From positions 234,936,779-235,000,778 of the forward strand of contig NC_089494.1 of the NCBI RefSeq assembly GCF_036850765.1: 64,000 nucleotides of DNA, read 5' to 3'. A program made the translations under genes and the position numbers. The DNA comes from Saccopteryx bilineata (lineage: Eukaryota > Chordata > Mammalia > Chiroptera > Emballonuridae). Below the pieces are notes generated by a model. It was not told where the DNA came from and made no database searches. It worked only from the letters and a program-made list of their open reading frames with translations. Below are positions 40,378 through 59,253 of this stretch, one piece after another (positions within the stretch are counted from its first letter, which is position 1; every line of letters starts with the position of its first letter).

Positions 40378-40735
40378 GGCCCTGGCCGTTTGGCTCAGTG
40401 GAAGAGCATCAGCCTAGCATGTGGAAGTCCCAGGTTCAATTCCTGGTCAGGGTACACAGGAAAAGCTCCCATCTGCTTCTCCATCCTTCCCCCTCTCCTC
40501 TCTCTATACCGCTCTCTTCCCCTCCTGCAGCCAAGGTTCTGTTGGAGCAAGGTTGGCTCGGGCGCTGAGGATGGCTCCATGACCTTTGCCTCAGGCGCTA
40601 GAATGGCTCCAGTTGCAACGAAGCTACACCCCAGATAGGCAGAGCATCGCCCCCTGGTGGGCATGCCGGTGGATCCCGGTTAGGATGTGTCTCTACCTCC
40701 CTGCTTCTCATTTCAGAAAAATTAAAAAAAAAAAA
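40378..40735 (+). mobile_element. tRNA-derived SINE (type 1)
   Basis: GGCCCTGGCCGTTTGGCTCAG head with A box and B box (GGTTCAATTCC), GC-rich body and A-rich tail. Target-site duplication not clear. Confidence 0.87.
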
Positions 40736-56506: not shown

Positions 56507-56509
56507 TAA

Positions 56510-56640
56510 CACTGGGAAACAATTTTTTTTTTTCATTTTCTGTTGCATGAGGTTTTAGAACTGTTTCTATATATTTCTGCATTGCTGATATCAAATCTGA
56601 AATCCGTTTTTTGGTGCATGCTCTAGTTTTTATGCAATTT
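56510..56640 (+). repeat. Left terminal inverted repeat of the transposon
   Basis: Aligned to the reverse complement of 59132-59250, it shares CACTGGG at the tip, TGTTGCAT, GCTGATNTCAAATCTGA (56584-56600) and AGTTTTTATGCAATT (56625-56639), in the same order. A short T-run makes the left copy slightly longer. Confidence 0.85.
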
Positions 56641-56779
56641 TAATTTATTTTTGTTACAGTTAATGGCATACATTGGTTTTTAAATTGGAGTTAAAAGGCA
56701 ACGACTCTTGGATTGAACATAACCACAAGGCAATTAATGTTTTACAAACATCACTTTTACATAATTGTAGTTGTTTTTA

Positions 56780-57190
56780 TTTTTATTTATTTATTTATTT
56801 ATTTTTTCATTTTTCTGAAGCTGGAAACAGGGAGAGACAGTCAGACAGACTCCCGCATGCGCCCGACCGGGATCCACCCGGCACGCCCACCAGGGGCGAC
56901 GCTCTGCCCACCAGGGGGCGATGCTCTGCCCATCCTGGGCATCGCCATGTTGCGACCAGAGCCACTCCAGCGCCTGGGGCAGAGGCCACAGAGCCATCCC
57001 CAGCGCCCGGGCCATCTTTGCTCCAATGGAGCCCTGGCTGCGGGAGGGGAAGAGAGAGACAGAGAGGAAAGTGCGGCGGAGGGGTGGAAAAGCAAATGGG
57101 CGCTTCTCCTGTGTGCCCTGGCCGGGAATCGAACCCGGGTCCTCTGCACGCTAGGCCGACGCTCTACCGCTGAGCCAACCGGCCAGGGCC
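56780..57190 (-). mobile_element. tRNA-derived SINE (type 1) with 14-bp TSD
   Basis: The minus strand starts GGCCCTGGCCGGTTGGCTCAG and ends in an (AAAT)n tail. Perfect duplications TGTAGTTGTTTTTA lie at 56766-56779 and 57191-57204. It sits between the left inverted repeat and the gene of the DNA transposon, so it arrived after the transposon. Confidence 0.93.
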
Positions 57191-57262
57191 TGTAGTTGTT
57201 TTTAAATGTAAAAAATTATTATCTGATAAAAATACCTTCTTATTTTGTTTTAAGATTGAATC

Positions 57263-58903
57263 ATGGCTTCTTCGAGTAGGCATAAATGTAAGAATAGTCC
57301 TGACACCTCCTGTTATATATATGGCTGTTACACTTCAACGTCAAAGGTGCAATATTTCATCATTTGTGAACATGTGCATATATTTCCCATTTTCAAGTTC
57401 TCCTTGGCAATCAAGACAAGAATTGGGCTCCTCATATTGTGTGTCATAATTGTGAGGAAATGCTTTGTGACTGGACAAAAGGAAAATGCAAAGGAATGTC
57501 TTTTGGTATTCCCATGGTTTGGCGTGAACCTAAGGACCGCAGCAGTGACTGTTATTTCTGTCTGATCCATACAAAGGGCATCGGCAAGAAAAAACGGCAT
57601 ATAATTGCATATCCTAATATTCCTTCAACAATATGACCTATCCCACACTCTGAGACACTCCCGGTTCCAATTTTCAATGGTTTTATTTCTTCTAAGGATG
57701 AAGAAAGTGAATATGGTGATCAAGTGTATTTTGATAAGATGCATGAGGAAATGGTTGTAGAATCTAAAGGGTCTTCTTCTGATGCCAAGCAGTCATTAAC
57801 CCCTCAGCAGTTTAGCCAACCCGAATTGAATGACTTAGTAAGAGATTTGGGCTATCAAAGAAAGCAGCTGAGTCATTAGCCTCCAGGCTTCAAGAAAAGA
57901 ATGTACTTCACTGGTCAGCTAAAGTATCCCATTTCAGGAAGCGTGAACAAATTTTTGTGAACTTTCTTTTTGAAGACAAACACTTTGTTTACTGTCATGA
58001 TATCAGTAGTCCTCTCAGCCAGCTAGGTGTTACCACTTACAGTCCAACAGAATGGCGGCTAGTTCTTGACAGCTCTAAATGGAGTCTGAAATGTGTTCTC
58101 CTACACAACAGTAATGTTTATGCAGCAGTTCCAATTGGTTATTCAACTCATCTGCGAGAAGATTATAATGACATAAAAATTGTCCTCGACTTTCTGAAGT
58201 ATGAGGAGCATAACTGGATCATTTGTGTGGATCTTAAAATGGTAAATTTCCTGCTAGGACAACAGAGAGGTTTCACGAAGTATCCTTGCTTTCTGTGTTT
58301 GTGGGACAGCCAAGCTCAGGAGAAACACTGGACACAGAAGGAGTGGCTGAAACATGAAGCTCTGGAAGTAGGGATGCAAAATATTGTGAATGGACTTGTA
58401 GTAATCGAGACAGGATCATTTTTCTCCCACTTCACATCAAACTTGGCTTAATGAAGCAGTTTGTTCAGGCTTTGAATAGAGAAAGTGAATGCTTTCAACA
58501 TATTATTTCTGCTTTTCCTGCCTTGTCTTTCGAGAAGATAAAAGCAGGTATATTCAATGGACCTCAAATTCGAACCCTCATACGTGACGAGGAATTTGCC
58601 AGGAAGATGAATAAGGAGGAGAAAGCAGCATGGCAGTCTTTTGTGGCAGTTACAAAGAATTTCCTTGGCAACAAAAAAGCAGAAACCTATGAACTTCTGA
58701 TTCAAAGGATGCTGTTGGCTTTCCGTGACATTGGATGTAACATGAGCGTTAAGATTCACTTCCTGAACAGTCACTTTGATAAGCTTCCTGAAAATTTTGG
58801 AGCTGTTAGTGATGAGCAGACTACTGCTGGAGCATCAAACAAGATTTACCTCAACAAGTACACAAACGCAAGAGCTACAAATGCAAAATTTTTGCCTGAA
58901 TAG
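57263..58903 (+). pseudogene. Transposase-like gene, disrupted (family common in fish and invertebrates)
   Basis: A single-exon gene of about 540 codons, read in segments across frames: 57263 onward, 57439-57636, about 57637-57956, 57957-58447 and 58451-58903. The N-terminus is cysteine-rich: CKNSPDTSCYIYGC, then CHNCEEML, then DCYFCLIHTKG, a likely zinc-binding domain. The core has LVLDSSK (D at 58068), ICVDLKM (D at 58230), YPCFLCLWD and a following H, then LHIKLGLMKQFVQAL and PENFGAVSDEQ. I recognise this order from uncharacterised proteins abundant in fish and arthropod genomes; I know no function. The inverted repeats outside suggest a transposase. Lesions are at least two indels in 57310-57430, TGA at 57634 (probably from CGA), a 1-base loss near 57850 and an indel near 58420. 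The C-terminus after SDEQ looks deleted and rejoined. Confidence 0.78.
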
Positions 58904-59131
58904 AATTTAAATAAGTTTTGCGCAAATTTTATGATTAAAATAAGTGTTTTAATATGTTCTATTTTAAAACTGTAGACAAATTCCAATGCAATCATATCTT
59001 TTAGTGTATTAGTGTATTTACTGCATTATATAAATTATTATATTTTCACAAAGATGATGCCCAAGAAGACATTCTAGTTCATTATGTTAAATTAAATGTT
59101 GAAAATTTTACAAGATGAAAACTTAAATCTT

Positions 59132-59250
59132 GAATTGCATAAAAACTGTAGCTTACAGAGAAAAACTAATGTCAGATTTGAGATCAGCATGCTCGAATTA
59201 GGTAAGAACAAGTGTTTTTGTGGATGCAACAAAAATTTTGTTCCCCAGTG
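59132..59250 (-). repeat. Right terminal inverted repeat of the transposon
   Basis: The inverted counterpart of 56510-56640. GAATTGCATAAAAACT, TCAGATTTGAGATCAGC, ATGCAACA and CCCAGTG occur in mirrored order. It begins about 230 bp beyond the end of the disrupted gene. Confidence 0.85.
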
Positions 59251-59253
59251 TAA

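Follow-up and report, generated by a model that had tools for sequence, protein, structure and literature searches.

What kind of DNA transposon surrounds the broken gene near the 3′ end of this Saccopteryx bilineata sequence, and how did it come to be in a bat? All positions given here are coordinates within the window, that is, the whole 64-kb stretch of S. bilineata DNA that was analyzed. The element spans positions 56510 to 59250 (2,741 bp, including a later insertion of a short interspersed nuclear element [SINE]), and we consider it very probable that it is a decayed, nonautonomous copy of the Chapaev3 type, whose family entered sac-winged bats, most likely by horizontal transfer. The initial annotation had supposed that one copy of an unknown kind of mobile element had reached a mammal. 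Neither part of this held, since the exact tip occurs 1,978 times in the genome when either end is counted and the family shows the hallmarks published for Chapaev3 (PMC4079192 and PMC4411706).

Ends, target sites, and copy number

The tips of the element are inverted, with CACTGGG starting at position 56510 and CCCAGTG running up to 59250, and the outer contexts of the two ends are A[TAA] on the left and [TAA]T on the right. Between the terminal repeats, 99 of 124 ungapped columns (79.8%) are identical, which bears out the inverted repeats with outer TAA that had been noticed at first inspection. Their local alignment reaches a score of 62, compared with a mean of 21.4 (standard deviation, 3.1) and a maximum of 35 in 1,000 dinucleotide shuffles. 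Against this, up to 2,000 random pairs of the same size were taken from the window, and five of them reached that score (four exceeded it and one equaled it), which presumably reflects the abundance of dispersed repeats in the window; because random pairs reach it, the alignment score is not decisive on its own. What is decisive for the inverted ends are the exact tips, the target-site duplication (TSD), and the further copies in the genome.

These copies are numerous, and the refuting condition set at first inspection, an absence of further copies sharing the termini, does not apply. The exact tip TWACACTGGGGAACAA was counted 989 + 989 times genome-wide, versus 4 + 2 times for the control; in this count one element may appear twice, and elements with mutated tips are missed. 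A query with the 194-bp 5′ end returned 1,882 first-look candidates in the S. bilineata genome, and all 40 scored candidates, the window copy included, match this 5′ end at 94 to 100%. Our copy sample consists of the window copy and the 39 other scored copies, which were fetched. In 34 of the 40, the positions of both ends were established (L012, L020, L025, L034, L043, and L044 were dropped because the 3′ end was missing, unclear, or near the end of the stretch). Identical 3-bp TSDs flank 26 of these 34 copies, with identical TWA in 25, and an A and a T stand outside the TSD in 25; a smaller earlier set (the window copy plus 20 others) had given identical TSDs in 14 of 18.

Empty sites were sought in 287 kb of fetched copy sequence, with spans for L022, L030, and L033. 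The joined flanks of L033 match an uninterrupted repeat in L041 at 243 of 301 positions, without a gap at the junction, and those of L030 match many copies of a SINE-like repeat. These two paralogous empty sites therefore indicate precise insertion with a 3-bp duplication. The candidate for L022 was left uncounted, as its junction is spanned by just 15 bases on one side.

The 5′ part of the window copy is interrupted by the SINE, which lies between 14-bp direct repeats, TGTAGTTGTTTTTA, at 56766 to 56779 and 57191 to 57204 and contains a match to the tRNA family RF00005 on the minus strand (57114 to 57184). Because it interrupts the transposon, the SINE is the younger of the two. It accounts for about 0.4 kb, and without it the element measures about 2.3 kb, comparable to the 2,287 to 2,331 bp of the copies that have neither a 325-bp deletion (see below) nor a large insert (L010, L011, L013, L019, L028, and L046). 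The window holds a second tRNA-like match at 40391 to 40446; both matches are probably SINEs.

Table 1. Features of the element and its flanks, in window coordinates
Feature	Positions	Strand	Remarks
TSD TAA, left	56507..56509	.	A precedes
5′ terminal inverted repeat, tip CACTGGG	56510..56649	+	Inner border approximate
tRNA-type SINE, later insert	56766..57204 (body ~56780-57190)	-	14-bp direct repeats
Transposase gene remains, very probably Chapaev3	57263..58893	+	tblastn with P0121 and P0122
76-bp deletion site	58816..58819	+	P0121 residues 521-544 gone, including invariant E522
3′ terminal inverted repeat, ending CCCAGTG	59114..59250	-	Inner border approximate
TSD TAA, right	59251..59253	.	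T follows

Transposase and nested deletions

The extent first annotated for the gene, 57263 to 58903, was right, but the gene itself is nonfunctional: at base level the window copy carries five frameshifts and one stop, an in-frame TGA at 57634. A protein search found a close transposase, P0121, in Saccopteryx leptura, and piecewise tblastn covers its residues 1 to 563 at 84 to 90% identity; the window remnant is that of a transposase of about 565 amino acids (aa). The match consists of six pieces with a frame change between each neighboring pair, the last change being a jump from residue 520 to 545. The window copy is a broken transposase gene that is not translatable as a single protein.

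In an alignment of 75 sequences, C343/C346, L391/H392, H505, D270, D324, and E522 are invariant and H500 is conserved at ≥90%; toward the N terminus, C61/C64 and C97/C100 are invariant and C17/C20 nearly so, in a confidently folded region that may be the Chapa zinc domain of Chapaev3. The C(2)C, LH, and H(4)H motif and the residues of the aspartate-aspartate-glutamate (DDE) triad are kept in most bat copies that have the site, and E522 is presumed to be the catalytic glutamate. The predicted structure features a RAG1/Transib-like RNase H core with a strong fold match. The fold is taken from prediction because sequence searches gave no related solved structure: one search was empty, and another returned two weak, unrelated matches (E values of 0.27 and 8.6). 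Pfam likewise yielded nothing above the cutoff for the window pieces or the relatives tried. The P element, Hermes, ISCth4, and integrases also appeared among the structure matches and were set aside as general RNase H relatives. As had been suspected from the sequence of the window, this protein family is the transposase of a DNA element.

The bat element combines CAC/GTG ends, TWA duplications, the A..T context, C(2)C/LH/H(4)H, and the DDE triad, which are the published hallmarks of Chapaev3. PMC4079192 describes for Chapaev3 a 3-bp TWA TSD and insertion between A and T, and it names the tenrec as a mammal with an earlier report. We regard the bat family as a new family of Chapaev3, a superfamily that is itself already known; no description of Chapaev in bats was found in the literature searched, which did not extend to Repbase, Dfam, or the main paper on transfers into bats. 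Similar ends also occur elsewhere, as CAC-type ends are common across the wider group, and together with the strong RAG1/Transib fold match they might instead point to Transib, Mirage, or CACTA. TSDs measure 5 bp in Transib and 2 to 3 bp in Mirage and CACTA. The bat TSD, however, is a 3-bp TWA, as in Chapaev3 (PMC4079192), and we consider it very unlikely that the element belongs to one of these other superfamilies. The labels partly overlap, because one survey ranks Chapaev3 as a clade within the Transib superfamily (PMC4411706).

Most sampled copies share the defect of the window copy. Of the 37 readable copies, 34 have a 76-bp deletion, always with the same spacing and between GCAG direct repeats (two are intact, one has another deletion, and 3 of the 40 are unreadable), a high share that a sample picked by similarity favors. 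In the window copy and the 33 others, it takes out the presumed catalytic glutamate; the window copy belongs to a subfamily in which this presumed third catalytic residue was already gone. A 325-bp deletion, which takes out the first aspartate, D270, occurs in 18 of 33 readable copies, all 18 of which also carry the 76-bp deletion. Gapped alignments had made the two deletions appear in all four combinations, which was an artifact; exact spacing gives nesting. Separately, L033, L036, and L038 form a third deletion class: these copies, about 1.58 kb long, share almost identical breakpoints and are short of about 730 bp in the gene's 5′ half. A search with the complete protein, which favors complete copies, agrees indirectly with the dominance of deletions: among the 68 matches listed, 60 end at or before residue 532 (35 at residues 520 to 523), whereas seven long matches and one fragment extend to at least residue 552, although some matches end early through frameshifts and not through deletion.

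The pooled ratio of nonsynonymous to synonymous substitutions (dN/dS) is 0.89, i.e., near neutral (39 copies including the window copy, with L020 dropped). Two copies whose frame is almost or completely open stand apart, L048 at 0.37 and L049 at 0.43 (Fisher P values versus the pool of 0.003 and 0.013, uncorrected for their choice as best protein matches). L049, at C4:288233000-288236600 in S. bilineata, has an uninterrupted transposase frame with 93% identity to P0121; its 3′ untranslated part appears to be split by an insertion.

This pattern fits a constrained autonomous lineage that mobilized dead elements in trans. An autonomous element with a DDE transposase of about 565 aa and RAG1/Transib fold would have entered the sac-winged bat lineage, most likely horizontally, its enzyme presumably cutting the CAC...GTG ends and inserting at A[TWA]T with duplication of TWA. 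An internal deletion between GCAG repeats would have cost the enzyme the helix that bears its presumed catalytic glutamate, and this enzyme-dead derivative, as well as a second one with the additional 325-bp deletion, may have been mobilized in trans by an intact copy. The two dead derivatives make up most of the sampled copies, and the elements amplified in trans seem to have been mostly dead.

Probable arrival in sac-winged bats by transfer

A maximum-likelihood tree of 37 sequences, rooted at the midpoint, places the bat proteins as sister to that of the stick insect Bacillus rossius (support 100/97), inside a 19-row clade (100/99) that also holds horseshoe crab and pipefish, while frog, snake, amphisbaenian, and Hydra fall outside. 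A protein search and a tree with fish and arthropod homologues had been proposed from the start, together with horizontal transfer as a serious possibility, and the conflict between element tree and host tree now speaks for it: that the bats group with stick insect, horseshoe crab, and pipefish and not with tetrapods supports horizontal transfer. At the level of protein sequences, a transfer into sac-winged bats is well supported, and its direction and route are what we infer from this. The nearest non-bat relatives are 76% identical in the alignment, too distant for any of them to be the direct donor.

Several points weigh against the reading of a horizontally acquired Chapaev3 family. The copy sample was chosen by similarity to the 5′ end of the window copy, a choice that favors the subfamily of that copy and copies of low divergence; identical TSDs are missing from 8 of the 34 copies with both ends placed, and in one further copy the two TSDs are identical but read TTT. 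Filing under Chapaev3 draws on the published hallmarks and the predicted fold, not on alignment to a named Chapaev3 reference. In the tree, three moths and one spider also fall outside the bat clade, the root is the midpoint, and several named rows are partial. Most of the nearest relatives come without a species name, and no donor can be named; the case for transfer would also be drawn from the protein tree, not from DNA-level identity between hosts. Finally, the bats comprise two species, and absence elsewhere in bats is judged from the names among the best 120 of 1,408 proteins, mostly nameless.

Alternatively, the family could have been present in early mammals and been lost except in sac-winged bats, and the presence of the wider protein family in frog, snake, and amphisbaenian would suit such vertical inheritance. 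However, the bat sequences stand apart from these tetrapods, and the copies are young. They diverge by 2.5% at their 5′ ends (the 20 best matches plus the window copy) and by 4.7% at synonymous sites (39 copies). At an approximate neutral rate of 2.2e-9 per site and year, this would correspond to roughly 10 to 20 million years, too young for a resident since early mammals unless it was continuously active. Moreover, among the top 120 of the 1,408 proteins, most of them nameless, no name belongs to another mammal. Vertical inheritance is thus highly improbable. Contamination of the assembly by arthropod or fish DNA, to which the invertebrates and fish among the nearest named relatives might point, is refuted, since the copies are spread over 13 contigs, C1 to C13, each tens to hundreds of megabases long and with the window on C5, a SINE that has its own TSD has inserted into the window copy, two copies lie inside repeats that recur in the same genome, and S. 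leptura also has the transposase, on a 196-Mb contig.

A virus-borne copy was looked for in two scans of viral contigs, where the published bracovirus copy could have appeared, and none was confirmed: one had no pattern match, and the 103 pattern matches of the other included no relative. One family member, P0141, is filed under a Pseudomonadota metagenome bin and is probably animal DNA in that bin.

The DLGAP5 locus and relation to known systems

P0121, the protein predicted in S. leptura, joins a transposase to a DLGAP5 tail. On contig C4 of S. bilineata, the true DLGAP5 lies at 44.978 to 45.021 Mb (two exon stretches of the DLGAP5 protein P0241 are 100% identical on this contig), and an inverted partial duplicate of its last exons is found at about 45.167 to 45.178 Mb. 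Directly before this duplicate stands the best transposase copy, the near-intact L048 (C4:45177300-45181300), with 98% identity to P0121. The likeness of the duplicate to the parental DLGAP5 intron begins at the base after the 3′ end of L048, and the parental intron has A[TAA]T at the matching point, which amounts to a one-sided empty site. Against this, the right flank of L048 starts with AAT and is one base short of TAA, the tip at the 5′ end has decayed, and the sequence on the 5′ side shows no homology with the parental intron. A composite transposon carrying a DLGAP5 fragment was not supported, as no second Chapaev3 end was found in the 10 kb past the far border.

In L048, a C-to-G change (AGC to AGG) creates a GT splice donor exactly where P0121 switches to DLGAP5, a change found in 0 of the 34 other readable copies. 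From the protein, this switch point implies that S. leptura shares the donor and that the insertion predates the species split. It is tempting to speculate, although we judge it rather unlikely, that a near-intact RAG1-fold transposase may have been captured as a Saccopteryx host gene, spliced to the DLGAP5 duplicate and selected in S. leptura. L048 and the transposase part of P0121 differ at 13 of 564 positions; in the DLGAP5 tail, 6% of 84 residues differ in one exon and 0 of 21 in another. One of the 13 differences speaks against a functional gene, namely, the TAG at codon 105 that L048 carries in the assembled S. bilineata genome, and the low dN/dS could stem from selection that acted before the insertion. 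The locus offers a mammalian example in which the possible capture of a RAG-like transposase can be tested.

Compared with known systems, the bat transposase shares about 10 to 15% identity with the RAG1 core recombinase, the enzyme behind antibody gene rearrangement, and with HzTransib; no RAG2-like gene was seen in the bat element, and the bat TSD is 3 bp. Closer parallels are Merrow and Garfield of lampreys, fishes, insects, and a bracovirus, which according to PMC4079192 resemble the bat element in size (2.3 to 2.5 kb), transposase length (556 to 562 aa), C(2)C/LH/H(4)H, CAC/GTG ends, insertion at A[TWA]T, and repeated horizontal transfer. Compared by description, they have two coding exons (78 and about 480 aa), whereas the bat reading frame is intronless there, as are most other Chapaev3 at that point (PMC4079192).

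The same source puts the mammalian Chapaev3 of the tenrec (Conan/Chapaev3-1_ET, also in Anolis) down to horizontal transfer, as we do for the bat, which would make the latter the second Chapaev3 invasion of a mammal, the tenrec being the first. The tenrec family is described with 88 copies, 1,865 bp, and an age of 26 to 36 million years (PMC4079192), whereas the bat family has 1,978 exact tips (either end), measures about 2.3 kb, and is apparently younger. Unlike those of the tenrec, the sampled bat copies are mostly nested, enzyme-dead deletions, and they illustrate clearly how a copy with a broken enzyme can take over a transposon invasion. Finally, the hAT and piggyBac elements of bats are likewise recent DNA-transposon invasions with counterparts in invertebrates, although they belong to different superfamilies and are described, in PMC4298943, from Vespertilionidae and not Emballonuridae; to such invasions the present family would add a RAG1-related superfamily, in Emballonuridae, outside the well-studied vesper bats.
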